Below, in pieces: positions 7,047 to 64,000 of a DNA stretch of 64,000 nucleotides. The DNA lies in assembly GCA_028753945.1 (NCBI GenBank), contig JAPNXP010000014.1, forward strand, positions 4,526,001-4,590,000, given 5' to 3'. The DNA comes from Hexactinellida sp. DTS-2022 (taxonomy: Eukaryota > Porifera > Hexactinellida). The notes beneath the pieces are model-generated. The model was given only the letters and a program-made list of their open reading frames with translations. It was not told where the DNA came from and ran no database searches. Position numbers and translations under genes: made by a program. Position 1 is the first letter of the stretch. The number at the start of each line of letters is the position of its first letter.

Positions 7047-7461
7047 GGAATGGCGGAATATTCGTCGAAGGAGTTTTGGTCGAACGGAATTTTGGTCGAA
7101 AATTTTGGTCGAAAGGATTATTGGTCGACCGGAATATTCGTCGAAGGAAAATTGGTCGAACGGATTATTGGTCGAACGGATAACTGGTCGATTTTATCTA
7201 AGAGTAAACAACTATTGCTTGCTATTGCTCCCACCCCATTGATTATTGTTTAGCACTTATGAAATGTCTTTTCACTTTTATGAAGAATAGTTTTGAGGTT
7301 GTTATACGGTAAATAACAACCTCAAACTATTCTTCATATGTTCACAACTTTATACTGGTCTTCATAATAACACTGCTTCAAAAGCTATAAATACGTAGTA
7401 TAAGTAGAAAGATTTCAAACAAAAACTCAAACATCCTAGACCTAGTTCACTTTTACTCTTT

Positions 7462-8409
7462 ATGGCTACTGCATCCAATCAAATTTCCATAGAAAAGATT
7501 AAGAGCAAACGAAACAAGGAAAAAGCTGTGGTTGAAGGGTTCTTATATAATTTAAATCGCATAAATGGTGAAGTTTACTATTGGGTATGCGAAAAACGTG
7601 GTAAATGTAAAGCCCGAATAAACACACTGAATGATATCGTCATAAAACCAATGCATATCACTCAACTAACAAATGACCACACTCATGCACCATCTCAAGA
7701 ACGCATCGAAATGTTAACAGCTTATTCTAAAATCAAATCAATGGCATCTAACTCTGAACAAAGCACCAGGGCAATACTTTCTACATCCTTAGAAACAATG
7801 CATCCAAGTGTTGTAAATACATTTCCCAAGCTAGAGTCAGTCAAACGCATTATACGAGTATACAAAAGCGCCGGTATAGAAACTTGTGGACACCCTGAAA
7901 GCGCAGCTGGAATTATCATTCCAGAGAAGTATAAAACGACTCTTAAAGGCGATCCATTTTTATTATTTGATTCCGGATTTGGTGATGAACAAAGAATGCT
8001 TATGTACGCCACCCCGAAATTTTTGTCCATTCTTAGCAAGAGTAATAATTGGTTTTGCGATGGGACCTTTAAAGTAGTTCCAGAGCTGTTTTTCCAGTTA
8101 TATTCAATTCACGCAGAATTTGAAGGATTGGTAATACCATGCGTTTACGCATTACTATCCAATAAGGAAGAATCGACCTATGATACAGCATTTCGTAAAT
8201 TACTTGAAATCGAACCAGCACTGAACCCTCAGTCCATAATGGTTGACTTTGAAAAAGCAGCTATAAATGCTTTGGAGAACAACTTTATATCTGTTATTAG
8301 TGCCTGTTTTTTTCATCTATCGCAAAATATTTACCGAAAAATTCAGGCAGAAGGATTAACTACAAATTACCGTCAAGACCGCGATTTCTCATTGAAAATT
8401 AAGATGTAA
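7462..8409 (+). pseudogene. FLYWCH zinc finger + truncated MULE transposase (315 aa)
   Basis: Residues ~20-75 form a FLYWCH-type domain (FLYNLNRINGEVYYWVCEKR, CKARINT, then HTH). The catalytic domain has D200 (CDGTFK) and D262 (VDFEKA) and the CFFHLSQNIYRKIQAEG motif. It ends at a TAA right after KIKM. The frame beyond that stop still reads PSLAFVPEIDVIDLS, which aligns with PALAFAPPSDVLNLF of the family-1 protein. The stop is therefore a point mutation, and the rest of the gene, including the third catalytic residue (E), has been replaced by palindrome-repeat sequence from about 8450. The element is non-autonomous. The FLYWCH part might still bind the TIRs; that is an inference. Confidence 0.85.
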
Positions 8410-8495
8410 CCCAGTCTTGCCTTTGTTCCTGAAATCGACGTAATAGACCTTTCTGTAATAATTTAACACCTTCATAGTGATGATGACTAGGCGAT

Positions 8496-8622
8496 AAAAA
8501 ATCCAAAATTGCAGCTTGTGCCGACAACATGTTCCTTTGGAGGCACTATCAATAAACCACCACCAAAATATAGTGCCACCTAAGGACATGCGTCGGCACA
8601 GGCTGCTATTTTGGATTTTTTC
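8496..8622. repeat. ~125-bp palindrome (hairpin repeat)
   Basis: Arms of ~52 bp: AAATCCAAAATTGCAGC..GTGCCGACA..CTTTGGAGGCACTAT, then a short CACCACCAAAATA loop region, then the inverse arm. It is one of more than ten copies in the window. Here it sits inside the MULE, fused to the broken transposase gene. Confidence 0.85.
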
Positions 8623-8869
8623 TTTTCTTTCAGTATAGCCCTCGGTACAAGTCTGTCTATGTATCTCTTTTAATTAAAAGTATTTAATTGTAGTCACCAT
8701 ATTTATTGATATTGCCAATTATCTGTTCGACCAAAATTCCGTTCGACCAATAATCCGTTCGACCAATTTTCCTTCGACGAATATTCCGGTCGACCAATAA
8801 TCCTTTCGACCAAAATTTTCGACCAAAATTCCGTCGACCAAAAATCCTTCGACGAATATTCCGTTACCC

Positions 8870-13739: not shown

Positions 13740-14935
13740 GAATGATTGTTTCTATATACCCATAAAAAAACAGAGTATCTAATAATATTTGTTAACTGGG
13801 GTCAATGGTTATACCCCCCCCCCCACCCACCCCTGGCTACATTTCATTTTAGGGGAGTGTGGACTCGTTTTTGGAGATTACTAGGACCCTTATAGACTGA
13901 AAGTTAGATTGGTAAAGCCATTTTGGCATATTTATGGTAGTTTCTATAGAAAAAGACAAGTCTTACTACCTATTTGCTAAATAAGTCTAACTAAAATGAA
14001 AAAAGGGAACTATTTGGGTGTTTTAAGCGTGCTTTGTCTTAATACTGATCTGATTTTATAGAATTGAGCTCCTGAAAATAATTTCTCCAATGCGGGTTTT
14101 TCGCCATCAATGCGGGTCAGCGGGTTTCGATGCTCAAATTCGGGTCACTTGGGAGCTATGCTTTGATTTCTACTATACTCTGTCTTACTTTGTGCGCAGT
14201 TGTGTAAGGTGCTATAATTAGCTCAATTAGTGACCCCAACCTAATACTATTTGATTATTTTCAAAATTAATAATAACTTAGTTAAACTATTATTTTGACT
14301 ACATAAATTGTTTAGATTCTAACAATTTAGTATGAATCTTTATAGTTATTTGATCTCAAAATTACAAATTGCCTTAAATTCCTAAATCCTTCCTTGACCC
14401 AAATGGATGGTCTTACATCGCCCACCAGAACTCTTGCTGGGGTTTGGTCATTCTAAGAAACAATGTCCACTCCTTGGGTACAGTGTGGCACATGGTCTCG
14501 TGAGTTTTGAAATGTCCAGAGTAATATACTGAGTATCGCACTTGTTAGGCATTGGAAATTAGGCAAATAGCACTATACAGTGAGTGGATGCCGGTTATAA
14601 GCACACATCGGGAACTACACTTAATGTGCTTATAACCAACATAAATTATATAGGGAGGGTATATGGCAACAGTTTTCCAACATTGTGTTCTTATAACCGG
14701 TGTGCTTTTATCCGACATCTACTGTATCGTATCTGGCTTTTTTAATCAAAATCGTATCCAATGTAGCACATTGAATTGTAGTCAACGCATAAATTTGAAA
14801 AATCTAAAGTTACAGCTGTGCCAACAGCATTTTCTTTTCGTAACACTATTAATCAACCAACCACCAAAATATGTGCCTCCAATGGACATCATCCAGTGGA
14901 CATGCTGTCGGCACAGCTGTAATTTTAGATTTTAA
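13740..14935 (+). repeat. Dispersed repeat ending in the palindrome (copy 2)
   Basis: The same repeat as 11030-11790, diverged. It has extra sequence (a poly-C tract near 13815) and a pogo-type MITE at 14578-14724. It ends in the variant palindrome at about 14797-14933. No gene. Confidence 0.6.
14578..14724. mobile_element. Pogo/Tc1-type MITE (CAGTGAGTGGATGCCGG ends)
   Basis: 147 bp flanked by TA on both sides. The ends are CAGTGAGTGGATGCCGGTTA and ...TATCCGACATCTACTG, with internal CTTATAACCGG repeats. The paralogous repeat at about 11575 reads AAATAGCACTTTATG with no insertion, and so shows an empty site. A second member lies at 25897-26069. Confidence 0.75.
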
Positions 14936-14939
14936 TTAT

Positions 14940-15490
14940 TATTATTTTCCTTCCGTATCCCAACCACAGAACAGAGTTTTATTAACTAAGAACCCAAATT
15001 TTCAGGACAGGTGTCTAAAGGGTTACAGATGTGCACCTAGGGTCACGATTTAATATTACATTTTTTGGACACATTTTTGAACCTATTTAATGCCACAACA
15101 TGAACAATAAATAATGCCCGAATATTAAATTTATATACATTCGATAGAAAATATAATTCTACACATTTCACCGTGCACGAATTTTCAAATTGGGTTTAGT
15201 TTGTGCCATAATTGGGGTGCCAATCTCCTGTATTTCCTCACACCTAAGATTCAGTAAACTGTTAAATCTATTTCTATTGTTTCAACTTTTAATATTTATA
15301 TTGATCTAACTTGTTAAATCTTACTCTAGTGTTTCAACTTGCGATACTTATATTGATTTAACTTGTGAATTCGAGCTGCTTCTATTTAATTGTAGTATAT
15401 TACTATACAATGGATTAAATTAAATTAAATAAGGAATTTGTGGACTTAACTCAACTCACCGTGGATAGCATTGCTAAATAATTAACTATA
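14940..15490 (+). repeat. Part of the ~1.2-kb palindrome-bearing repeat
   Basis: Downstream-of-palindrome sequence (CAGAACAGAGTTTTATTAAC, GTGCACCTAGGGTCACGATT, TTTCAACTTG..ATTGATTTAAC) also found at 27640-28060, 61770-62170 and 63100-63640. No gene. Confidence 0.6.
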
Positions 15491-15494
15491 TATA

Positions 15495-15972
15495 CACTAC
15501 CCAGACAAAAGTATTCGACCACCCAACATTTTCCCATTGAAATAGTACTATAGTGGGGTTAACAATGGAAGATGGTGTTTTAAAATTACATGAGATATTG
15601 CTATTTCGATTACATATTCGTATTCTGCACATTCGAATTAACAATTGTAGGCGCTTTCAATTCAATCCCTTTTTGATTTGGGTAAAATTATCTTCCTGTG
15701 CCACTATGCACCACTTTTTGCAAATTGCCACTATGGGAGAGATGGGAACTGGTGGCACATGTTGCCATTTGATGATAATTTTCAACCGAATTAATATGTG
15801 ATCAATTGGAAGCATCTACAATGGGTAATTCGATTGCGTAGAATACGAATCTGAATTCAAAATAACAATATCTCATAAAGTTTTCATACATTGAACATCA
15901 TTATTAGGCCTACTATAGTACTATTTTCAATGGGAAAATGTTGGGTGGTCGAATACTTTTGTCCGGGTACTG
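15495..15972. mobile_element. Mariner-type MITE with ~55-bp TIRs
   Basis: 478 bp flanked by TA. The ends begin CACTACCCAGACAAAAGTAT and CAGTACCCGGACAAAAGTAT, continue TCGACCACCCAACATTTTCC and read to ...CTATAG. The inside has a further mirror-image pair around CGTATTCTGCACATTCG and GCGTAGAATACGAAT. No coding capacity; the frame at 15553-15801 is incidental. A diverged relative is at 5120-5965. Confidence 0.8.
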
Positions 15973-15974
15973 TA

Positions 15975-17560
15975 TATAATCTATTATCAATACATAATTA
16001 ATGAATGTCATTAAACTCAAGATGGTATAAGATAGAAAGAAGCTTGAAATTTATCAATCGTTCCTTTGTCCCGTAATAACTTGATAAATTGGTGTAAACA
16101 CCTTGAGACGTTCATGACATGTCGAAAAAATCCAAAATTACAGCCTGTGCCGATAGTATTTCCCTTTGGAGGCGCTACTAGTTACCCAACCACCAAAAGT
16201 AGTGCCTCCAAAGGGAAATGCGTCGGCACAGGCTGAAATTTTGGATTTTGTTTTGCTCCGTGTCGCCTCCCTAGCCAGGACTGTAAGTGCCAAATGTCTG
16301 AAAATTTCAGGATAGGTGTCTGGTTGTTCATTAATTTGCATCTCGTGGCCCATATTTTAAATTTCAATTTTTGGGACACATTTACACCTTTTATAATTTG
16401 TCTGGGCCATATCTCAAATAATTTTATACTGAACCCCTATTTTTTATTGGATTCACAATAAAATTGGATTCACAATAAAATTCTGCGTCTGATGGGCAAA
16501 TACAAATTTTCATATTGGGCTTCGCTTGTGCCATAATTGAGTTGTTAATTTCCTTTGTTTACTTTACTAACACTTCCGTTCAAAGTGTTAAATCTAATTA
16601 TAGTGTTTCAACTTGTAATAATTTCATTGATTCAACTTGTGAGATCGAGTAGGCTTCTATTTTGCAATTGAAAACTAAGATTGTACATTCGTTAACAACG
16701 ACAGATTATGTGATTATATTCCTTCTACAAGAATACAATTGCACTATTAATATACTGACGTAATTTATTATTATTAATTCAGTCTTTATTTGACTTATAT
16801 AGATGCTTCCAAGTTGTATAATAGGGGTTATCGAGTATGTGGAATTGAAATTCACGGGCGTCGCACGGCTCTAAAAACTCTCCGGTCAAACAGTTAAAGT
16901 GGTCCGGCCAAAACCGGACCCTCCTATATAATATAGTAGAATAAATGAAAAGTGGTCCGGCCATGGCCGGACCTGCCGGACCACGTGCTACGCCTATGAA
17001 ATTTGATAGCCAAATAAATTAATGATAACCTATTTACTATTTATGACAAATAATTATACATAATAAATGTAAGTTGACCCTGAAATTGGTGTTAAATTAT
17101 TGATAATATTATTAATGATTTATACTAATAGCTAAATATTATTAATCTCAGAGATGATACAAGATAGAAACAAACTTCAAATTGATCCTTATGCCACATA
17201 ACACCTCTACAAATGGGTCTTGACTCCTTGAAGTGATGATGACTTCGTCAATAAAATGTGTTTTACAATTTTGTGAATTAGATATTCGAATGGGTTGGTT
17301 GGTGTTGGGTGAATACCCAACACGCACATAAACTATGCTGACTCATCACATATTATATTCTACTGAAACTTGAATATCTCAAAAATGAAGTGAGCTAAAA
17401 GGAAACTTCCACCACTCTAAGGGTCGTTGCCTTCCGAAATAGTTTGACACCTTCATAGTGATGATGACATGGCGAAAAAAATTGCAGCTGTGCTGAAAGC
17501 ATTTTCCTTGGAGGCACTATCAATTACCCAACCAGTAGCCACCAAAAGATAGTGCCTCCT
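15975..17560 (+). repeat. Two diverged palindrome-repeat units
   Basis: Unit starts with TTATCAATCGTTCCTTTG at about 16050 and ATTGATCCTTATGCCA at about 17186. The palindromes are at 16125-16250 and at about 17476-17560; the second is split by a MITE and resumes at 18173. Between them are the shared segments GACACATTT, CTGCGTCTGATGGG and TTTCAACTTGTAATAAT. The stretch 16830-16990 has additional GTGGTCCGGCC words. No gene. Confidence 0.6.
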
Positions 17561-20652: not shown

Positions 20653-22475
20653 GGGTAACGGAATATTCGTCGAAGGATTTTTGGTCGACGGAATTTTGGT
20701 CGAAAATTTTGGTCGAAAGGATTATTGGTCGACCGGAATATTCGTCGAAGGAAAATTGGTCGAACGGATTATTGGTCGAACGGAATTTTGGTCGAACAGA
20801 TAATTGGCAATATCAATAAATATGGTGACTACAATTAAATACTTTTAATTAAAAGAGATACATAGACAGACTTGTACCGAGGGCTATACTGAAAGAAAAG
20901 AAAAAATCCAAAATAGCAGCCTGTGCCGACGCATGTCCTTAGGTGGCACTATATTTTGGTGGTGGTTTATTGATAGTGCCTCCAAAGGAACATGTTGTCG
21001 GCACAAGCTGCAATTTTGGATTTTTTATCGCCTAGTCATCATCACTATGAAGGTGTTAAATTATTACAGAAAGGTCTATTACGTCGATTTCAGGAACAAA
21101 GGCAAGACTGGGTTACATCTTAATTTTCAATGAGAAATCGCGGTCTTGACGGTAATTTGTAGTTAATCCTTCTGCCTGAATTTTTCGGTAAATATTTTGC
21201 GATAGATGAAAAAAACAGGCACTAATAACAGATATAAAGTTGTTCTCCAAAGCATTTATAGCTGCTTTTTCAAAGTCAACCATTATGGACTGAGGGTTCA
21301 GTGCTGGTTCGATTTCAAGTAATTTACGAAATGCTGTATCATAGGTCGATTCTTCCTTATTGGATAGTAATGCGTAAACGCATGGTATTACCAATCCTTC
21401 AAATTCTGCGTGAATTGAATATAACTGGAAAAACAGCTCTGGAACTACTTTAAAGGTCCCATCGCAAAACCAATTATTACTCTTGCTAAGAATGGACAAA
21501 AATTTCGGGGTGGCGTACATAAGCATTCTTTGTTCATCACCAAATCCGGAATCAAATAATAAAAATGGATCGCCTTTAAGAGTCGTTTTATACTTCTCTG
21601 GAATGATAATTCCAGCTGCGCTTTCAGGGTGTCCACAAGTTTCTATACCGGCGCTTTTGTATACTCGTATAATGCGTTTGACTGACTCTAGCTTGGGAAA
21701 TGTATTTACAACACTTGGATGCATTGTTTCTAAGGATGTAGAAAGTATTGCCCTGGTGCTTTGTTCAGAGTTAGATGCCATTGATTTGATTTTAGAATAA
21801 GCTGTTAACATTTCGATGCGTTCTTGAGATGGTGCATGAGTGTGGTCATTTGTTAGTTGAGTGATATGCATTGGTTTTATGACGATATCATTCAGTGTGT
21901 TTATTCGGGCTTTACATTTACCACGTTTTTCGCATACCCAATAGTAAACTTCACCATTTATGCGATTTAAATTATATAAGAACCCTTCAACCACAGCTTT
22001 TTCCTTGTTTCGTTTGCTCTTAATCTTTTCTATGGAAATTTGATTGGATGCAGTAGCCATAAAGAGTAAAAGTGAACTAGGTCTAGGATGTTTGAGTTTT
22101 TGTTTGAAATCTTTCTACTTATACTACGTATTTATAGCTTTTGAAGCAGTGTTATTATGAAGACCAGTATAAAGTTGTGAACATATGAAGAATAGTTTGA
22201 GGTTGTTATTTACCGTATAACAACCTCAAAACTATTCTTCATAAAAGTGAAAAGACATTTCATAAGTGCTAAACAATAATCAATGGGGTGGGAGCAATAG
22301 CAAGCAATAGTTGTTTACTCTTAGATAAAATCGACCAGTTATCCGTTCGACCAATAATCCGTTCGACCAATTTTCCTTCGACGAATATTCCGGTCGACCA
22401 ATAATCCTTTCGACCAAAATTTTCGACCAAAATTCCGTTCGACCAAAACTCCTTCGACGAATATTCCGCCATTCC
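20653..22475 (-). mobile_element. MULE transposon, family 2, copy 2 (inverted)
   Basis: 1823 bp, the reverse complement of 7047-8869, with the same truncated gene, the same stop codon and the same embedded palindrome (20903-21027). Its right flank, read on the minus strand, is ...TTTGACATGAGTTCGTG, the missing left half of the target site found at copy 1. Its left flank (ATAAAATAC when read outward) shows no matching duplication. Confidence 0.9.
21113..22060 (-). pseudogene. FLYWCH + truncated MULE transposase (second copy)
   Basis: 315 residues with the same translation as the frame at 7462-8409. FLYWCH-type zinc finger, D200 and D262 of the DDE triad are present; the third acidic residue is lost after the shared premature TAA. 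The identity, including the non-coding parts, shows that the duplication is very recent or that the copies have been homogenised by gene conversion. Confidence 0.85.
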
Positions 22476-24190: not shown

Positions 24191-24848
24191 ATGGGACAAA
24201 TACTTGATTAGCATAAAGTCCGCTTTATTTTATTTGGGCTACAAAATTGAAACAAAGGGACATGATAGATAAATTTATGGCGTATCCACTTTTCATTCTT
24301 AAGCTAGCTAATCATTAAGCACTAAATGTAATATAACTTTTCAAGTGATATTTATTCCAATCTGGAAATAATATATTCGTAATCAGCATGGAATTTCCGT
24401 TAATCAGAGGGGTCACATGACCATATTCAGATTAAAAAGTTTCCTTGACAACGGTGGAATGTTGAACATTCCATTCTCAAATTATAGCAACCCTACCAAG
24501 TGACCCATCTTTCGACAGCGCACACTGTTCTTGATTACAACTATGCATATAATAACCTTATACGAAGTCATTTGACATGAGTTCGTGAATGCGGACTTTT
24601 GTCCGAATAATATTAAAGTGGTCATTTTGAAAATGCCAGATGGAGGTCATAATGTATCCGGCGGAAGTGGATCCTACCAAAAATCGAGTGCCCAAGCAAT
24701 GGTCTATATGTGGAAGAAATTTGGTGCTTTGGTCCGGGATGTCCACATCCATCAGCTAATCTGCCCTACTAATACAGTATATTTAAAGTAATTTTAAACC
24801 TTCTTGAGTTTAATGCCATTCATTCATTATGTATAGATAATAAATTAT

Positions 24849-24975
24849 AAAATCCAAAATTGCATCCTGTGCCAACGCATATCCCTTTGGAGGCACTACA
24901 TTTGGTGGTTGGGTAACTAGTAGTGCCTCCAAAGGGAAATACTTTCGGCACAGGCTGCAATTTGGGATTTTTTTT
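24849..24975. repeat. ~125-bp palindrome
   Basis: Same hairpin family as 8496-8622: AATCCAAAATTGCATCCTGT ... TTTGGAGGCACTACATTTGG ... inverse arm. The flanks GTAATGCC / TAAACCATTTATC match other palindrome-repeat units in reverse orientation. Confidence 0.8.
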
Positions 24976-25127
24976 CGCCATGTCATGAACGCCTCATGGT
25001 GTTTAGACCCATTTATCAAGTTGTTACGGGACAAAGGAACGATTTATGAGTTTGAAGTTTATTTCTATCTGTAGTAAACTACCAACTATGGGACAACTGT
25101 AGCCTAGTCAGCCGTACTGCTACTAGT

Positions 25128-25177
25128 GGGGTTTCGTTCCATTCCAGGAACTCATCAGGAGGGTGACCCCCGACCCC
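25128..25177 (-). ncRNA. Hammerhead ribozyme A
   Basis: Minus strand: stem III 5' strand GGGGU, cleavage base C, stem I hairpin (GGGGGUCACCCUC, with one G-U pair), the core CUGAUGA, stem II GUUCC-UGGAAU-GGAAC, then the core GAA and ACCCC closing stem III. All invariant core bases are present. Confidence 0.85.
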
Positions 25178-25292
25178 GTGAGTATCCTACAGTTCCCGGC
25201 CAATGCACCAATGTAGTAAACTACCAAACTATGGGACAACTGTAGCCTAGTCAACCAGGATGACTAGTGGGGTTTCGTGACCACCCAGTCAC

Positions 25293-25342
25293 GGGGTCGA
25301 GGGTCACCCTCCTGATGAGTTCCTAGAATGGAACGAAACCCC
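25293..25342 (+). ncRNA. Hammerhead ribozyme B
   Basis: GGGGU-C at 25293-25298 (predicted cleavage after 25298), stem I GAGGG-UCA-CCCUC, the core CUGAUGA, stem II GUUCC-UAGAAU-GGAAC, core GAA, then ACCCC. Stems I and II are capped and stem III is the open one, so the topology is type III. Stem III is only 5 bp. Confidence 0.9.
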
Positions 25343-25635
25343 ACTAGTAGCAGTACGGCTGACTAGGCTACAGTTGTCCCATAGTTGGTAATTTACTACA
25401 TTGGTGCATTGGCCGGGAATTGTAGGATACTGTGGAAGGACTTGCTCTCATCTCTGCCGGGGACAATATCCCTGTGGCGACGGCAGAGGACTCCTAGGCT
25501 ACGAGCCTGCGGTCGTATCGGACCTGAGTCGAGAGGAGTGTAGTATCGGGGCCGGTGCCAAGTGGAGCTAGGTGTATGCCGGCAGGAGCGCACTCGTAGA
25601 GTGTGGCAATAAGGAAGCGTGACCACCTCAGTCAC

Positions 25636-25685
25636 GGGGTCGAGGGTCACCCTCCTGATGAGTTCCTGGAATGGAACGAAGCCCC
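25636..25685 (+). ncRNA. Hammerhead ribozyme C
   Basis: Same layout as B, with predicted cleavage after 25641. The base following GAA is G instead of A, so the closing pair of stem III becomes G-U. This position is normally A, so C may be weaker than B. Confidence 0.85.
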
Positions 25686-25749
25686 ACTAGTCATCCTGGT
25701 TGACTAGGCTACAGTTGTCCCATAGTTGGTAGTTTACTACACTATCTTA

Positions 25750-26069: not shown

Positions 26070-26867
26070 TACTACAATTAAATAGAAGCCAGCTCGAATT
26101 TCACAGGTTAAATCAATATAATTATCTCAATTTAAACAATAGAGTAAGATTTAACAAGTTTAATCAATATAATTCTTACAAGTTGATACAATATAATTAG
26201 ATTTAACACTTTAAATTTAATAGACGTGTTAGTAAACAAAGGAAATTTACAACTCAATTGTGGCATAAACTAAGCACAATTTGAAAATTCGTGTACTGTG
26301 ACAAGGTGTGGAATTAAATTATCAATCGAATGCATATAAATTGAATATTCGGGAACTATTTATTGTTCCTGTTGTGACATTAAACAGGTGTAAAAATGTG
26401 TCCAAAATAATGTAATAAAAAATCGTGCACCAGGTGCACATCTGTAACCCATGAGACACCTATCATGAAATTTTGGGCTCTTAGTTAAAATCTAAAATTA
26501 CACCTGTTCCGACAGCATGCTCCTTTGAAGGCACTATATTTTGGTGGTTGATGGATTGATAGTGCCTCCAAATGGCATGCTGTCGCCACAGGTGTAATTT
26601 TAGATTATTTTGTCACGTCATCACCACCACGAAAGTGCTAAACCATTTCAGGAAGGTGTTTCGGAAGGCACGACCCTTAGTGAGTTGTTTCAGAGATATT
26701 CAAGTTTCAGAAGAATATAATAGGTGATGAGTCAGCATTTTTTATGTGCGTGTTGGACTGTTGGGTGTTCACCCAACCCCATAGTACCCATTCCAAATAG
26801 ATAATTCACAAAATTGTAAAAACACATTTTTTGACGATGTCATCATCACCTCAAGGTGTCAAGACCC
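26070..26867 (-). repeat. Palindrome-repeat unit in reverse orientation
   Basis: Contains the palindrome at 26487-26607. Read on the minus strand it has the same segment order as the array at 61310 onward (GGGTCTTGACACCTTGAGGT, GTTGGGTGNNCACCCAAC, GCTGAGTCATCACC, palindrome, GTGCACCTGG). It meets a plus-oriented unit head to head around 26868-27600, where the ribozyme-bearing segment is inserted. Confidence 0.65.
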
Positions 26868-27230
26868 AGCTGTAGATAGCTTGGGGTGCACGGCAGTACG
26901 CTGGTAGCCAAGGGACGTACGGGCTAAGGTCTAGGTAGTCGAGGGTTACCCTCCTGATGAGTCCCTGTGATGGGACGAAACCACCACCATCCACGAGTGA
27001 TCCTTGATGGGTGCGAGATCGGCATGACAGGGTACGGCCCGGGTTTCGTAGTCATCCACAGCGATAGAAAACAAACGCTCTACTGGCGCAGATCCCGCTG
27101 GGATGGCGAAGTAAGGATAGCCAAAGTGGTGAGCTCAGGCATGATGTATTGGTTCTGTTTGCAATACTGAAGTGGATCTGAGTCATCTGGGATGTTTGGT
27201 TGAGCAAGGTAATTTTCAATTTGCACTGAG
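26868..27230 (+). other. GC-rich segment led by a hammerhead ribozyme
   Basis: Inserted after TCAAGACCC of the repeat unit. It carries hammerhead D at its 5' part and then about 240 nt of GC-rich sequence (GGGTGCGAGATCGGCATGAC and onward). A 67-codon frame (26967-27170) overlaps it, but no domain is recognised and there is no basis to call it a gene. It may be a single unit of a second, diverged retrozyme family. Confidence 0.5.
26934..26985 (+). ncRNA. Hammerhead ribozyme D (diverged)
   Basis: GGUAGU-C (predicted cleavage after 26940), stem I GAGGG-UUA-CCCUC, the core CUGAUGA, stem II GUCCC-UGUGAU-GGGAC, core GAA, then ACCACC. Relative to A-C, stem II has changed a U-A pair to C-G, a compensatory substitution. 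Stem III has changed on both strands and keeps pairing apart from one A-C mismatch. Confidence 0.85.
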
Positions 27231-27237
27231 GTTAGAG

Positions 27238-27559
27238 CCGTGGTTCCCAACCTTTTCCAAAAAAAGTCAGGATATTACCCCCTATTGCCCCTAAGCTATA
27301 TTTTTGCTAAAATTCCCCCCAGCACTTCAATGTAGAATTTTGGTATGGAAATAACTGAAAAACTAAGTAAAATATAAATAATACTGTCAATGAGAACTGT
27401 CAATATAATCAATGCAAGGTATTATTAATTACTTAGTGATTAAATCATTCAGTGAGACAAAGTAATCCAGAAAATTTCATTAATACAGTATATCTAAGTA
27501 TACCTATGTGGAATTCCTCCCCAAGGATGGCCAAATTCCTCTCAGGTTGGGAACCACTG
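27238..27559. mobile_element. hAT-type MITE (TGGTTCCCAACC ends)
   Basis: 322 bp. Left end CCGTGGTTCCCAACC, right end GGTTGGGAACCACTG. The flanking 8-mers GGTTAGAG and GGCTAGAG differ at one base and are a plausible aged duplication. The ends match the widespread hAT pattern CAGTGGTTCCCAACCT. Non-coding. Confidence 0.8.
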
Positions 27560-28860
27560 GGCTAGAGATATATTGTTACTGTGCCGACTATACTATAGTA
27601 TAGTGGCCCAGTATTGGTCTTAGTGCTTTGGTTAGTTATTATTATTTATCCGTAGCCACTCCACAGAACAGAGTTTTACTAACTAAGAGCCCAAATTTTC
27701 AGGATATGTGTCTCATGGGTTACAGATGTGCACCTGGGGTCACGATTTTTTATAACACTTTTTTGGACACATTTTTACACCTGTTTAATGTTAGAAAAAG
27801 CACAATAAATAGTGCGAGAATATTAAATTTATATGCATTCGATAGAGAATCTAATTCTACACCTTTTCACAGTGCACGAATTTTTAAATTGGGTTCCATT
27901 TGTGCCACAATTGAGTTGCAAGTTTCCTTTGTTTACTAACACTTCAGTTCAATTGAAAGTGTTAAATCTAATACTATTGTTTCAACTTGTAATAATTATA
28001 TTGATTCCACTTGCGAGATCGAGTAGGCTTCTATTTTCTAATTGAAAACTAAGATTATATATTTCATAACAACGACAGATTATGTGATTATATTTATTTC
28101 TGCTTAGAATATTCTTGCACAATGGATACATGACATATTTAATTCTAATTAATTCGCTTTGTGTTTAACTTATAGAGACGGTTCCAATTAGATTATTGGG
28201 GTTATCAAGTGAGCTGAATTCAAATATGATAGTGAAATTTAATTTAAATTAATAATAATTGCAAATAATTGAACTTCATTTATTTTGCTGTACATAATAA
28301 TGGTGTTAAATTACTAATAAATTAATAATTATTTATACTAATTAATTAAATATCAAAAATCTCAGAGATTATACGAGATAGAAACAAACTTCCAATTTAT
28401 CAATTGATCCTTATGCCAAGTAACACCTCTACAAATGGGTCTTGACACCTTAAAGTGATGATGAAATCGTCAAAAAAATGTATTTTTACAATTTTTTGAA
28501 TAAAATAATTCGCATTGGTTAGTTGGAGTTGGGTGTAAACCCAACACCCACTTAAAAAATGCTGAGTCATTACAGATTATATTCTACTGAAACTTGAATA
28601 TCTCTCAAATGAAGTGAGCAAAATGGAAACTTCCACCACTCTAAGGGTCGTTGCCTTCTGAAACACCTTTCTGAAATAAAATAACACCTTCAAAGTGATG
28701 ATGACTTGGCGGAAAAAAATCCAAAATTGCAGCCTGTGCCGACAGCATGTTCCTTTGGAGGCACTATCAATAAAACACCACCAAAATATAGTGCCACCAA
28801 AGGAACATGCTATCGGCACAGGCTGCAATTTTGGATTTTTTTAATATTGTTCTACAGGGG
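27560..28860 (+). repeat. Complete palindrome-repeat unit
   Basis: Begins with CCGACTATACTATAGTATAG (also at about 62975 and 63040). It runs through CCACAGAACAGAGTTTTACT, TTCAACTTGTAATAATTATA, the start block TTATCAATTGATCCTTATGCC (about 28396), GTTGGGTGTAAACCCAAC and ends in the palindrome at 28713-28842. No gene; the short frames are incidental. Confidence 0.7.
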
Positions 28861-28869
28861 TTTCACTCA

Positions 28870-30504
28870 TTAATCTAAAAAGCTTGCATCTTTTCTTTGG
28901 AGGTCATACCGAATTAGGTTATGTGGTAACTTGACTTTCATCTACTTGGACTTGCGTATTTAATTCAGAAACTTTCTTAGATAGCAGCTCTTTTATTTGG
29001 TTGGCCTCACTATTGTAGCACCAGTCAAGTTTCCATCTCGGATATAATGCAGCAGACTGTTGAAAATTATATTTTTATTCTTCATATTTAACCAATCGCC
29101 TATAATAGATGATATTAGTGTAGTAACCATCTTTGACTATATTTTTTGGACAATTCTTTCAGCTCAGCTCTGAGTCCATGGATACAAGGAATCACCAAAC
29201 TGGATGTTACGAACTTCTGAGCTTGACATTGCATAGTAGCTAGCTCAAATGGCGTTAGAACCGCCGTTATCTCACTAATTACTTTCATTTTATATCTTGT
29301 TAACTTAGCTGAATAATTAAGTTGCTCAATTATGGCGGGATCTGCATCCAAAAGTGATTTGAGCATCTTAATCGTACTGTTCCATCTTGTGTAATTTTTT
29401 TCCTGAAGTTTATGACCACCTTCTAAGAGAGAAGTAGCTTGGCAGGAGTTACGAACATAGCTAACAATCTTAGATACTTTGTTGATTATTGACGATACAG
29501 CGCCAATTTGTTTGATTCCATTATGTATACCACTAACTGTAGAGTGTGTATGAAACATGAGATATTATTAGGCAGATAATCCATCACATCTTGTGAATCG
29601 ACAGGCATGTACAGTGTACACATCCCATCTTCATTACCATTTTCATCACTACTACTGTCTCCGCTGTCCGCTTCCACCCCTGGAAACTTGACAAATGTCT
29701 TGAGCATATTAGCAGCATTGTCTGTGATGATATATCCAACCTTACCATCTAAATTGAACTGTTCGATGATGTCCTGATAATTGGATAACACATTCTCTGC
29801 AGTATATAGTCCTATTTGTCCATATACCTACTGTGAGGCAGATTGTTTGGATTTAGAAAGTCGTTTACAGATGTTGATGTGAAGCTTTGAAGTTTTCGCG
29901 GGGAGGATCTTGGTACTCAAATATTTGTGAGAAGGAATATTGTAAGCAGGCTGAGCTTTCTTCATTAGTGCACAAAAATCAGGGTTCTCTACCTCGCAGA
30001 GTGGCTTCAAAGAATTACAGATATATTTAACTAAGTAGTCTGTCATTTCTATTTGGTTGGGATTTGTTGCCTTCCATAAAACTGGTGTTCCACTAACAGT
30101 CATAAAGTTAGTTATAGGCCTTATCTGGATACAGTTGAATTAGTGTTGAGCTATGTTCTATGTGTATTTCTGGATGATGTCGCTAAGAGAAAGAGAGATT
30201 GGGATAACGTTGTATAACCAAAATTCTTAAAGTGTATTTTTCTTAATCTTACCTTCATGTGCGTGTGAAAGTAGAATGTTGCTGCATAGGAACCTGAGAC
30301 TGGTTTCTTACAGTCATTACAATTAATATTGAACTGACCGGAAATATTATCAGCAGGTTCATCGAAGTGTTTGAATATCGGAGGAGTCATTTCACAAGAT
30401 TGAGTAAGTAGATGGCCTAGTACTACTGAATGCTCAATATACACGTATACGTATATACCCTCATGATAACAAAGAGAAGCCATTTGTTCATGTAAAATCA
30501 ACAC
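28870..30504 (-). pseudogene. hAT transposase (BED finger, ZBED-like), decayed
   Basis: Minus strand, in order: a BED-type zinc finger (NCNDCKKPVSGSYAATFYFH, then THMK; about 30340-30260); a linker domain (PNQIEMTDYLVKYICNSLKP, about 30060-30000); the first part of the RNase-H fold (GYIITDNAANMLKTF, about 29740); CFIHTLQLVV (about 29550); the helical region with WNSTIKMLKSLLDADPAIIEQ (about 29370); and remnants of the C-terminal dimerisation domain (AALYPRWKLDW, about 29050-29000). Frameshifts separate the pieces, so it is inactive. No TIRs were located. Confidence 0.75.
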
Positions 30505-30639
30505 CTTACTAGAAGTCTAGCAAAAATGTCAAGCCTAAGCCATAACTGATGTCTAATAAATTAAATAATATTATAAATAACGAACACTAGAAAACGTATA
30601 ATCGACAATTTTTCGGTCTACTTTTAAGAACAAATTATT

Positions 30640-39470: not shown

Positions 39471-41417
39471 CTAAGTAAACAGCTTAATCGTCCCGTCAGC
39501 TCCCGCGGAGAACAACCACGGCTGTGTGGGATGAAACACGCACTGTAGAACCCCCATGTCTCCCGTGACAGTGTGGCCTCTCAACGTTCTAAGTGGCACC
39601 AACAGAGGGTTCCTATCCAGGTCGGGGTACACCATACCGTGACACACAACGGTAGATCCTTCGTCGCCACATGAGGCGAAGAGCGGGTAGGTAGGGTGGT
39701 ATGCCACGGCACGAACCGCGCCCTTGTGGTGTCTGAGGGTTTTGTATGGCTTGGTGGACAGCTCCAGGTCAAACCACATGACTCTACAGTCCTGGCTGCC
39801 TGCTATTATATTCGTACCTCCGCGATGGATAGTTAAACACGACAACCACTGGACAGGGGGTGACAGACGCTTGACAAGTGCCTGAGCAACCAGATTGTAG
39901 ATAAGAATGTTACGCTGTGTGCAGACAAAGAAGGTTGGGTCTGTAGGGTGGAAAGAAACGCATTGGATCTGACCTTTTGATTTTACAAAAGGAGTTTGTG
40001 ATTGATGCTTCGACAGCTGATGTATGTAGACCGACTTGTGACTGCTGTCGCGCTGTACACTAGCAAAGTAATCTCCTCTTTTGTGCCAGACCACCTGAAT
40101 TATTTCTCTACCAATTTCTACTTTTAACCCACTGTACTCATCACTGCCACTCAGCTCACTCCAGACGGGTCCCTTTCTACCCGCCGCGGGCTCACAACTG
40201 GTGTTCATTAGTGAATCTGTGTCGCTGACCAGCTGCGAGTTCCCTAGCCTGTAGTTAATCAGTAACAGCGATTCTCCGCTCGCAACCAGCAACAACATAT
40301 GAGCTGAGGTGGGGAAGAACTCAATACTGCGCACAGTGTCTTGCAGCTGAATTAGCTTCAAGCAGCGTCCAGTTGACACCTCCCACACCCTCGCGCTACT
40401 GTCGTCACCGCCAGACGCTATTAGCCGACCCATTGGGTGAGCAGACAAGCATCGCACACACCCCTTATGCCCGATGTAACTGAATGCAACTTGTGTGGGG
40501 AACGGCTGTAGGTCCTTAGGCTTAGGCAGTTGTGGTAAGATGTCTCTTGGGTCGAGTTTTGGATTTAGTTTAAGCTTTGACTCTCTAGGACATAAGTATA
40601 GGTCGAGACAACGGGAAAATCTCTCTTGATATATCTTTGGATAAAGCGGGATCTCTCTCATGGATCCATACTGGGTGGTTAGGTATTCGCCTACCTTTTT
40701 ATCTGCTCTGCTCCTCGCGTTCCATTTGTCCTCTTCCTCAGGCGTTGGTAGGTACTCAGGGGGCGGGCGGTAGGACTCTCTGTGGCCTGGGAGACGCAAC
40801 TTAGGCGCTGGAATATGGGGTAATATCTTTTTATTAACTTTCTCTTCACTCGGGGTCTCTGACCAAATCTTGTGAAAGTATGGTTTTTCATCCAGCTCAA
40901 AATCCTTTTTAGGCTTTATCCAACCTTGTCTGATGGCGAATACTAACTTCATCACTTTCTGATGTTCCCATTTTGAAGGAACGAATCTCCTCTTGGGTTC
41001 ATCTGCCCCGACTAAAGGCGTGTCAAACTTTATGGACGTATAATATTCTATGGTAGGGGGGTAGGGGTCAAACTGACTATCTGGATAGTCAGCATTTTGA
41101 ATTCGCTGTACCATATCAATCTCTTTGTCAGAGAGCTGTATATTGGTCCCGGGAAGTTGGGGCATTTTAACTGTGGTCCAAAGACCAGAAGGGTCCTCTA
41201 TGCCCTCTAAGAATTGGTCCAGCTGGTCACCAGATGCAGGCTTCAATACTCGCTTACCCTCTAGGTTATAGCCGATATGTGGGAAGTCCCTGTACCATTC
41301 TGTGGGTATGTCTCCTATGGTGTTTAGGATTCCTTCTTCATCCGATTCAGAAGGTGAATCCTCGATTGAGTCATCACCGTTATTGTACGATGATTCAACC
41401 TTAGAGCTACTTTTCAT
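39471..41417 (-). CDS. BOP1: Ribosome biogenesis protein BOP1 (WD40)
   Basis: 648 residues, single exon; human BOP1 is ~746 and differs mostly in the acidic N-terminus. It starts with an acidic stretch (DSIEDSPSESDEEGI). The BOP1 N-terminal domain follows: TIGDIPTEWYRDFPHIGYNL, LDQFLEGIEDPSGLW, RRFVPSKWEHQKVMKLVFAI, and PAPKLRLPGHRESYRPPPEY. WD40 repeats from about residue 310: GHKGCVRCLSAHPMGRLIAS, then GGDDSSARVWEV; QCVSFHPTDPTFFVC; WLSCLTIHRGGTNIIAGS; HHKGAVRAVAYHPTYPLFAS; and a last blade ending GADGTIKLFT. BOP1 works with PES1 and WDR12 in the PeBoW complex in the nucleolus, for 28S/5.8S rRNA maturation and 60S assembly. The GC content is higher than in the flanks, as expected for a conserved gene. 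First Met used. Confidence 0.95.
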   Translation of the reverse strand: MKSSSKVESSYNNGDDSIEDSPSESDEEGILNTIGDIPTEWYRDFPHIGYNLEGKRVLKPASGDQLDQFLEGIEDPSGLWTTVKMPQLPGTNIQLSDKEIDMVQRIQNADYPDSQFDPYPPTIEYYTSIKFDTPLVGADEPKRRFVPSKWEHQKVMKLVFAIRQGWIKPKKDFELDEKPYFHKIWSETPSEEKVNKKILPHIPAPKLRLPGHRESYRPPPEYLPTPEEEDKWNARSRADKKVGEYLTTQYGSMREIPLYPKIYQERFSRCLDLYLCPRESKLKLNPKLDPRDILPQLPKPKDLQPFPTQVAFSYIGHKGCVRCLSAHPMGRLIASGGDDSSARVWEVSTGRCLKLIQLQDTVRSIEFFPTSAHMLLLVASGESLLLINYRLGNSQLVSDTDSLMNTSCEPAAGRKGPVWSELSGSDEYSGLKVEIGREIIQVVWHKRGDYFASVQRDSSHKSVYIHQLSKHQSQTPFVKSKGQIQCVSFHPTDPTFFVCTQRNILIYNLVAQALVKRLSPPVQWLSCLTIHRGGTNIIAGSQDCRVMWFDLELSTKPYKTLRHHKGAVRAVAYHPTYPLFASCGDEGSTVVCHGMVYPDLDRNPLLVPLRTLRGHTVTGDMGVLQCVFHPTQPWLFSAGADGTIKLFT

Positions 41418-41419
41418 TA

Positions 41420-41985
41420 CACTTTTCTATAGGGCTAAACGAATATACCAAATATTTGAATACGTATATGTTTAATACTCTTGGACAACAATAAGAGTTT
41501 TGTAAAGTTTGAGAAATCGTAAATATAAATTCCTAACTTTTTTGTGCGAATTTAGTGTGTAATTCACTTTGTAACGATGATTAAATCATTGTAACATTAA
41601 CAAAAAACTATTTTCCACTGTATTTTGAGTCTTGAGTTTAAAATAAAACTTAATTAATCATCAAAACGAACGAATATTCGAATATTCGTTCGTTTAGAAT
41701 AAGGTTCGTTCGTTACATTTCGAATATTCTTTACAGCCCTAGTTTGTATTCCCCTATATAGCACTTAAATACAATCCTGACAAACAAACACACGAATAAA
41801 ATCGAGTTAAAAAATATAGATCTACCGACTTCGTATATATAATTGCTCGAGACACGCAAACAAAATAATAAAACGTATTAAAAAATGATACACTCAAGGT
41901 AATAAAAACAATATATGTAAAAAATCCGAGTATAAAGAACAAGCTATCAGTCAGCTGTAAAAGAGTAATCGCAATAAATCGACCA
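41420..41985. other. Intergenic between BOP1 and the NACHT gene
   Basis: 570 bp of AT-rich sequence with a CGAATATTCG-rich stretch (41668-41730: ACGAATATTCGAATATTCGT). It contains the BOP1 5' flank and the NACHT gene 3' end; no defined promoter motif could be assigned. Confidence 0.4.
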
Positions 41986-61309: not shown

Positions 61310-64000
61310 CCACTTTCTATTTATCAATTGGTCCTTATGGCAAGTGCCACCTATACAAGTGGGTCTTGACACCTTGAGGTGATGATGACATCGTTAAAAA
61401 ATGTGTTTTTACAATTTTGTTAATTCGATATTTAAAATGGGCTAGTTGATGTTGGGTGATGACCCAACACTCACATGAAAAATGCTGAGTCATCAGCTAT
61501 TATATTCTACTCATACTTGAATATCTCTAAAATGAAGTGAACTAAATGGAAACTTCCACCGGTCGATGCCTTCTGTAACACCTTTTTGAAATAATTTAAC
61601 ACCTTCATAGTAATGATGACAATGCGAAAAAATAATGCAAAATTGCAGCCTGTGCCGACAGCATGCTCCTTTGGAGGCACTATCAATAAACCACCACCAA
61701 ATATAGTGCCACCAAAGGAACATGCGTCGGCACAGGCTGCAATTTTGGATTTTTATTATTATTATTAGTCCGTATCCTCTAGACACAACAGAGTTTAGTT
61801 AACTAGAAGCCCAAATTTTTAGGATGGGTGTCTCATGGGGTTACAGATGTGCACCTGGGGTTACGATTTTTTATTTATAAATTTTTTATACATTTTTAAC
61901 ACCTTTCAAAATTTGTCTGGTTCTTAACTCAAATAATGTTATATAAAGCCACAATTTTTTTAACTAATGGATTCACGATAAAATTCTGCGTCTGATGGGA
62001 AAAATGCAAATTTTTAAAATTGGTAATTCATGCCATAAATGGGGGTTGAAATTTCTTTGTTTACTGACACTTCAGTTCAACTGAAAGTGTTGAATCTAAT
62101 TCTATTGTTTCAACTTGTGATTATTATATTGATTCAACTTGTGAGATCGAGTAGGCTTCTATTTTCCAATTGAAAACTAAGATTCTACATTCCATAACAA
62201 AGACAGATTATTTGATTATATTTATTTCTGCTTAGAATATTCTTGCACAATGGATACATGACATATTTAATTCTAATTAATTCGCTCTGTGTTTAACTTA
62301 TAGAGACGGTTCCAATTGGATTATTGGGGTTATCGAGTACGTGGAATTCAAATATGATAATGAAATTCAATTTAAATTAATAATCATTGCAAATAATTGA
62401 ACTTAATTTATTTTGATGTAAATAATATTGGTATTAAATTATCTTAGATTAATTAAATATTTATACTAATTATCTAAATTTCATTAATCTCAGAAATGAT
62501 ACAAGATAGAAACAAACTTTAAATTTATCAATTGGTCCTTTTGGCACGTACCACCTATACAAGTGGATCTTGACACCTTAAGGTGATGATGACATCGTCA
62601 AAAAAATGTATTTTTACAATTTTGTGAATTAAATAATTCGCATGGGTTGGTTGGAGTTGGGTTAACACCCAACACGCACTTAGAAAATGCTGAGTCATCA
62701 CAGATTATATTCTACTGAAACTTGAATATCTCTCAAATGAAGTGAGCTAAATGGAAACTTCCAACTCACTAAGGGTTGTTGCCTTTTGAAACACCTTTCT
62801 GAAATAATTAACACCTTCATAGTGATGATGACATGGCAAAAAAATCCAAAATTGCACCTGTGCTGACAGCATGTTCTTTTGGAGGCACTATCAATAAACC
62901 ACCACCAAAATATAGTGCCACCAAAGGAACATGCGTAGGCACAGCTGCAATTTTGGATTTTTTTTTATTACTGTGCCGACTATACTATAGTATGGTAGCC
63001 CAGTATTGATCTTACTGCCTTTATTATTTTTACTGGCCGACTATACTATAGTATAGTGGCCCAGTATTGGAATCACTGCCTTTATTTTTTTCTATATTTT
63101 TTCTCCGTAGACGGTGCCCTGGACAGAGCTTTATAGTTGTTGGGCTGAAACTTGGCATGTAGGGGCGATGGGACCGTCTAATTTGCACCTGCTCTTACAA
63201 TTTTTGATTAACAAATTTTGGACACATTTTTAACACCTTTTAAAGAATCTTTGGTCCATAACTCAAAAAGTGTTATACTAAACCGTCAATTTTTATTTTA
63301 CCATTGGATTCACCATAAAATTCTGCGTCTGATGGGAGAAGAAAACTTTTAATAACACGTTTAATTTCCGCCATAAAAAGGGGTTGAAATTTCTTTGTTT
63401 ACTCACACTCCAATTTCAATAAAACTGTTAATTCCATTGTTTCAACTTGCGATAATTATATTGATTTAACTTGTTAAATCTTTCACTATTGTTCAACTTG
63501 CGATAATTAAATTGATTCAACTTATAAATTCCAGCTGGCTTCTATTTAATTGTAGTGTTACTATACAATGGATTAAATAAAATAAAATAATATATGAAAT
63601 TTGTTGACTTTACTCAACTCACCGTGGATAACATTGCTAAAATAAATAACGAATAATATAATATATTATCAATACATAATGAATGAATGGCTTTAAACAC
63701 AAGATGGTTTATGATAGAAACAAACTTCAAATTTATCTACCGTTCCTTGTGACTTGGACGAATTAACAAATGGTTCTTGACATCTTGAGGCGTTGATGAC
63801 TTTGCGAAAAAAAATCCAAAATTGCAGCTTGTGCCGACAGCATGATCATTCGGAGGCACTATCAATAAACAACCAACAAAATATAGTGTCACCAAAGGAA
63901 CATGCGTCGGCACAGGCTGCAATTTTGGATTTTTTATTTATCCGTAGCCACTCCACAGAACAGAGTTTTATCAACTAAGAGCCCAAATTTTTAGGATGGG
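61310..64000 (+). repeat. Tandem array of ~1.2-kb palindrome-bearing units
   Basis: The unit start (TTATCAATTGGTCCTTWTGG) recurs at about 61323, 62528 and, diverged, 63735, a period of ~1205 bp. Each unit has the same order: GGGTCTTGACACCTTGAGGT; a small hairpin GTTGGGTGATGACCCAAC; GCTGAGTCATCA; AAATGGAAACTTCCA; the ~125-bp palindrome (61628-61755, 62838-62966, 63807-63936); GTGCACCTGGGG; CTGCGTCTGATGGG; GTTTCAACTTGTGA; and a long AT-rich stretch. The last unit runs off the window. There is no gene; the short open frames over the palindromes are mirror-image artefacts. Confidence 0.85.

Follow-up and report, generated by a model that had tools for sequence, protein, structure and literature searches.

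A head-to-head inverted dimer that bears type III hammerhead ribozyme motifs in both of its arms, and that sits between duplicated target sites, occupies 25071–25741 of the window (the whole stretch of sponge DNA that was analysed, 64 kb in length). On balance, we read this element as a non-autonomous, ribozyme-bearing and retrozyme-like retroelement that entered its site by target-primed reverse transcription (TPRT), with an enzyme acting in trans for which a Penelope-like one, or one similar to it, is the likeliest candidate.

An insertion with two inverted arms

The flanks of 25071–25741 belong to a repeat that has many copies in the window, which allowed the occupied site to be compared with empty ones. 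At two paralogous sites (about 16.03 kb and 63.71 kb) the flanks are continuous and the target is present only once, as CTATCT at one site and CTATCA at the other, and we therefore conclude that the element is a true insertion with a duplication of 5–6 bp. In three more copies of the repeat (28.4, 62.5 and 17.1 kb) we found the left flank up to TTTCTATC, with right sides too diverged to inform. By this comparison the element is mobile, a real insertion flanked by a target duplication, as the initial annotation had claimed from the CTATCT copies; a 5-bp duplication, CTATC (left copy 25065–25069), is equally possible, in which case the shared T becomes the first base of the element and its ends, TGTAG...CTACA, are inverted. 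No ORF of at least 100 amino acids overlaps the element, and the 64-kb window contains no second copy of its unit, leaving a single copy known here. The parts of the insertion are as follows.

25065–25070: left target-site duplication, CTATCT (single copy in paralogous empty sites)
25071–25741: whole element, head-to-head inverted dimer, 671 nt, GC 0.537 (from sequence comparison)
25071–25278, minus strand: inverted arm, comprising a variant-1 unit (25071–25211) and the last 67 nt of a variant-2 unit (25212–25278)
25275–25277: inversion junction, with 3-nt microhomology CGT (from the sequences of both arms)
25278–25400, plus strand: direct repeat 1, resembling a pseudo-LTR and made of the 3′ portion of a variant-1 unit, including hammerhead B
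25401–25741, plus strand: full variant-2 unit of 341 nt, starting TTGGTGC, ending TTTACTACA and bearing hammerhead C (unit boundary in both arms)
25742–25747: right target-site duplication, CTATCT (single copy in paralogous empty sites)

The units are 341–343 nt long, with a GC content of 0.557. The plus arm begins at the junction near 25275 and consists of a partial variant-1 unit (its 3′ portion, with B), which extends to 25400, followed by the complete variant-2 unit (with C). Read in its own sense, the inverted arm has the 67-nt variant-2 tail preceding the variant-1 unit that bears hammerhead A, and this unit is without the 200 nt that correspond to 25432–25631. The plus arm thus has the unit order 1-2 and the minus arm 2-1, and the predicted ribozyme cut sites are crossed by both arms, two by the plus arm and one by the minus arm. 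Both arms have TTTACTACA at their outward ends, at the same unit position, and the inner boundary between TTTACTACA and TTGGTGC falls at the same nucleotide in each. The tandem units are not identical, carrying hairpin variant 1 with B and hairpin variant 2 with C; unlike copies differ mainly in this hairpin, both variants of which fold as stems. The direct repeats (25276–25400 versus 25618–25741) are 91% identical over ~125 nt. The match to the inverted partner extends over 112 nt at 97% (the A and B units differ at 3 of 112 positions), and inverted matches lie at the extreme ends (44 nt at 98%) and just inside them (60 nt at 97%). The inverted, internally deleted partner with a ribozyme of its own, which had been noticed initially, is accordingly present.

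Several other features of the window were recorded. An abundant repeat of ~1.2 kb occurs in tandem and inverted arrangement (24791–25069, 26070–26876, 27571–28842, 14798–17559 and 61312–63997), and its long hairpin gave weak microRNA-like Rfam matches below the cut-off. Two inverted copies of a MULE/FLYWCH element, each of 1823 nt and 100% identical (7047–8869 and 20653–22475), carry tandem repeats of 16 nt inside each end; on one outer side, each copy is flanked by sequence matching half of the repeat at 24305–24753, which suggests recent insertions at the same repeat position. Broken ORFs at 29115–30516 (minus strand) look like hAT transposase by eye, with no Pfam family in the four that were scanned. 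Pfam domains found in the window were NACHT, NHL, galactosyltransferase, amino-acid transporter and MULE, and the protein at 39471–41426 (minus strand) is BOP1, with a score of 677.8 bits against the BOP1 entry 8fkp (presumably human) versus 522.5 against the best ERB1 entry (presumably yeast), which marks the window as eukaryotic and most likely animal DNA.

Type III hammerhead motifs and their predicted folds

We ran Rfam on the 64-kb window; the curated cut-off of the type III hammerhead model (RF00008) is 48.5 bits. Five matches reached gathering level, four of them type III hammerheads and the other a tRNA, and none of the 21 Rfam matches at E up to 1 was a further hammerhead of any type. 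The four motifs, together with the sequence that carries the last of them, are listed here.

25126–25179, minus strand: hammerhead A, type III, intact core (RF00008, 56.1 bits, E 1e-9)
25291–25344, plus strand: hammerhead B, type III, intact core (RF00008, 53.5 bits, E 5e-9)
25634–25687, plus strand: hammerhead C, type III (RF00008, 49.9 bits, E 5e-8)
26877–27231, plus strand: a further sequence with a ribozyme, of about 355 nt and with approximate ends (matches to the repeat go no further than 26876)
26933–26986, plus strand: hammerhead D, type III (RF00008, 54.6 bits, E 2e-9)

The GUC cleavage triplet, CUGAUGAG and CGAA are common to A, B, C and D. Stem III is open and stems I and II are capped, stem I having 5 bp and a 3-nt loop; the ribozyme loops may resemble those of viroid hammerheads. 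Cleavage is predicted after the GUC, at 25298 in B and 25641 in C (343 nt apart), after 25172 on the minus strand in A and after 26940 in D. Stem III comprises 5 bp in A and B, whereas in C an A-to-G change beside the core turns U-A into U-G at the base of stem III, one of its 5 bp; the change is private to C, because A, B and the partial copy at 25212–25278 all keep the A. In D, five of the six stem III pairs form, the sixth being A-C. We considered whether variant 2 had a dead ribozyme at its source and dropped the idea, since the other variant-2 copy keeps the normal base. Four type III hammerhead motifs are therefore present, with self-cleavage predicted, and the initial description of two such ribozymes in direct orientation, with an open 5-bp stem III, an intact core in B and one change beside the core in C, agrees with the Rfam matches and the layout of the fold.

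Aligning the four hammerhead sequences gave pairing in 93.8% of cells (9 of 500 shuffles were equally high), and slid versions of the alignment paired at 44–61%. Changes on both sides of a pair occurred in 2 of the 16 pairs, a weak signal that 27 of 500 shuffles matched, and comparing the element copies with D (four sequences only) gave two compensatory pairs, in stems II and III.

The sequence bearing D is wedged between two copies of the same host repeat. The ribozymes of B and D aligned with a score of 61, which none of 500 shuffles reached (maximum 26), whereas outside the ribozyme the scores between the element and this sequence were reached by 273, 299, 176 and 33 of 500 shuffles in four comparisons covering some pairs and strands. 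Two otherwise unlike sequences thus share the ribozyme, and we dropped the assignment of D to the same element family. Exact patterns found no relatives (0 matches) in the scanned viral contigs and genome contigs, and a distant search of phage records with 25275–25741 returned nothing; a looser pattern matched one viral contig, in a stretch that is not a hammerhead (Rfam gave 0 matches there at E up to 0.1). To the right of D, at about 27232–27562, lies a MITE with GTGGTTCCCAACCT inverted ends and GGTTAGAG/GGCTAGAG flanks, which we take to be hAT-like.

In the predicted fold of the complete plus-strand transcript, stem III of B and all helices of C had a probability of 0, and enforcing B or C cost 13.2 or 74.8 kcal/mol, respectively; the fold of the complete minus-strand transcript left A unformed. 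When the inverted arm was absent, transcripts from 25276 that ended at 25344–25375 formed B with a probability of at least 0.93 per helix, which fell as the transcript lengthened, stem III reaching 0.0 at an end of 25687. For the full plus arm on its own, the values were 0.62, 0.71 and 1.0 for stems III, I and II of B and 0.00–0.02 for stems III and I of C, with enforcement of C costing only 2.9 kcal/mol. In isolation, the 54-nt C folded as a hammerhead and A folded with a different stem I (the stem I of A had a probability of 0.05 in the minus arm alone), and D stayed unformed when folded within its sequence of 355 nt (stem III 0.0, stem I 0.03). The inverted arm is thus predicted to keep B and C from forming when transcription reads through the element, which probably makes this copy a poor donor of circles, and co-transcriptional folding would matter for any cutting here. 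D, the two hairpin variants and this predicted blocking are additions to the initial annotation. Of the two consequences drawn initially, the self-complementarity brought by the inverted partner is supported, and these folds speak against efficient release of a 343-nt circle from this locus. The predicted 343-nt circle was 69% paired, and its stability against 100 shuffles had a z of −0.88 (−1.38 for the opposite strand and +0.75 for D), for which reason we dropped the idea that the unit RNA is unusually structured; the accessible text of one report gives above 70% paired for retrozyme unit RNA (PMC4918200).

Template, priming and alternative explanations

The ribozyme motifs, the insertion, its arms, the junctions and the unlike units are direct observations, and they constrain the template. 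A linear monomer cut by the ribozymes was not the template, since both arms extend across predicted cut sites; nor was a monomeric 343-nt circle, since the units of B and C, with their different hairpin variants, are unlike within one arm. Both orders, 1-2 and 2-1, are accounted for by either a multimer left uncut or a circle of two units in the order 1-2, and the unit order fits a single repeating heterodimer.

In the mechanism that we favor, the template RNA would hold at least two units, whether as a multimer that had stayed uncut or as a circle ligated from two unlike units, and a reverse transcriptase acting in trans, Penelope-like or similar, would extend both cut target strands. Priming would occur once per target strand, synthesis would start each time from the same internal point (the end of TTTACTACA, about 100 nt past the cut site), and the two cDNAs would join head to head at the 3-nt microhomology. 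In the usual course, the ribozymes would divide multimeric transcripts into single units, which would then circularize. In the parts of the literature available to us, Penelope-like enzymes are no more than candidate movers of animal retrozymes; a Pfam scan of 20 of the 43 window ORFs of at least 100 amino acids found no reverse transcriptase domain. Counting against this mechanism are the z value of the circle, the unfavorable folds of A and D, the existence of one copy only, a target duplication (5–6 bp) shorter than those quoted for Penelope elements and than the 15 bp given for Nematostella repeats in the accessible portion of PMC4918200, and the inverted TGTAG/CTACA ends, which would also suit an integrase or transposase. 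The inversion may also have arisen by another route, self-priming on an antisense template, which the authors of the rotifer study prefer for head-to-head inverts with palindromes at their junctions, according to the text available (PMC3846280).

Those same ends, along with the inverted 44-nt and 60-nt stretches and the short target duplication, are what one would expect of a terminal-inverted-repeat (MITE-like) or integrase-moved DNA element whose terminal repeats carry the ribozymes as passengers or as trimmers of read-through. We judge this unlikely: the terminal sequence also occurs twice internally, its boundary runs into TTGGTGC in both arms, and the arms are of unequal length and meet at microhomology, evidence that is not strictly decisive. 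Rather improbable, too, is a miniature Penelope element proper, in which the direct repeats would be pseudo-LTRs, the hammerhead would be the pLTR ribozyme, the inner 216 nt would stand in for the ORF and circles would have no role. Direct and inverted repeats with a target duplication do make up the described Penelope layout (PMC3846280, in the part seen), and the accessible portion of a study of a lizard element reports that its enzyme uses mainly unprocessed RNA as template and that no reads end at the ribozyme cut site (PMC11167929); yet the Penelope hammerheads printed in the available pages are minimal type I (PMC7229834, PMC7761336), whereas these are type III, and none of the 20 of 43 window ORFs scanned encodes a Penelope protein.

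The class of the ribozyme is the one printed for viroids in the accessible text of PMC11722881, and this, with a unit of about 343 nt and a GC of 0.557, would suit an RNA replicon of viroid-like or satellite-like type that was captured into the genome as DNA. Such a capture seems very improbable, however, because the unit carries a ribozyme in one sense only (no opposite-sense hammerhead in Rfam at E up to 1), the fold of neither strand exceeds shuffled sequences in stability, and an otherwise unrelated sequence of the window, that bearing D, has the same ribozyme. Head-to-head inversions can also arise as assembly artefacts, and a local inverted duplication could contain hammerheads by chance; against an origin of either kind, which we regard as scarcely credible, stand the target duplication, the two empty sites, the four strong Rfam matches and the private changes among the copies.

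More speculatively, and with doubt outweighing belief, the favored trans-copied retroelement may belong to an animal class of type III retroelements of its own, in which a compact ribozyme shuttles among unrelated elements (this one and the sequence bearing D) and in which Penelope-style two-strand priming from a fixed start on multimeric RNA would yield inverted heterodimers that record their template. If true, an animal retrozyme of type III would make the division between plant and animal retrozymes less sharp and would bear on the origin of type III ribozymes in plant elements and viroids. Because the insertion keeps the unit order, starts and junctions, relatives could test Penelope-like copying and distinguish a circle from an uncut multimer.

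Comparison with known ribozyme-bearing elements

The comparisons below are with published descriptions as given in the accessible portions of each source. The element shows one general trait of retrozymes, namely at least two direct hammerheads (B and C) bounding a non-coding unit. Like the metazoan non-LTR retrozymes (PMC7229834), it is non-coding, with direct-repeat hammerheads, a unit within 170–400 nt, no LTR-type long repeats and a target duplication of more than 4 bp. Those retrozymes, which are without LTRs, have type I ribozymes and low GC (below 45–50%; PMC7229834), unlike the type III motifs, unit GC of 0.557 and head-to-head inversion found here. The premise of the initial annotation that animal retrozymes are mostly type I agrees with these sources (PMC7229834, PMC4918200), and Perreault and colleagues describe the vast majority of eukaryotic hammerheads in repeated regions as type I (PMC3088659).

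With plant LTR retrozymes the element shares type III ribozymes, GC above 55% and a short target duplication (PMC4918200, PMC7229834). It differs from them in its ~125-nt repeats and 5–6-bp duplication, where they have LTRs of 300–400 bp and a 4-bp duplication (PMC4918200), and in the 343 nt between its ribozymes, where they have about 700 nt; the plant elements also carry a PBS and a PPT (PMC4918200, PMC7229834). Type III motifs are printed for animals or their agents as well: HDV-like agents, termites and dipterans have them (PMC7936874, where the work on the dipteran motifs is stated as in preparation), with a long helix I, an extra hairpin and a loop pseudoknot in contrast to the 5-bp stem I and 3-nt loop seen here, and mammals have a discontinuous type III hammerhead (PMC6155905). 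We found no animal type III retrozyme in the portions of the open-access literature available to us.

With Penelope-like elements (PMC3846280, PMC11167929), the element has in common direct and inverted terminal repeats, a head-to-head arrangement, a hammerhead at the repeat and, in our reconstruction, a putative internal start of reverse transcription. It is unlike them in being without an ORF (theirs encodes a reverse transcriptase plus GIY-YIG) and in having type III rather than minimal type I hammerheads, and its target duplication is 5–6 bp versus 8–10 bp (PMC3846280, PMC11167929). The build is thus retrozyme-like, but each retrozyme class, as printed in the pages available, has a defining feature that this element lacks, and the anatomy of the insertion looks more Penelope-type than retrozyme-type. 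The element mixes a plant-like ribozyme and GC content with an animal-like size and a Penelope-like insertion; measured against the accessible literature, its combination of a type III ribozyme, 56% GC and Penelope-like inversion is new, and the kind of element is a known one.
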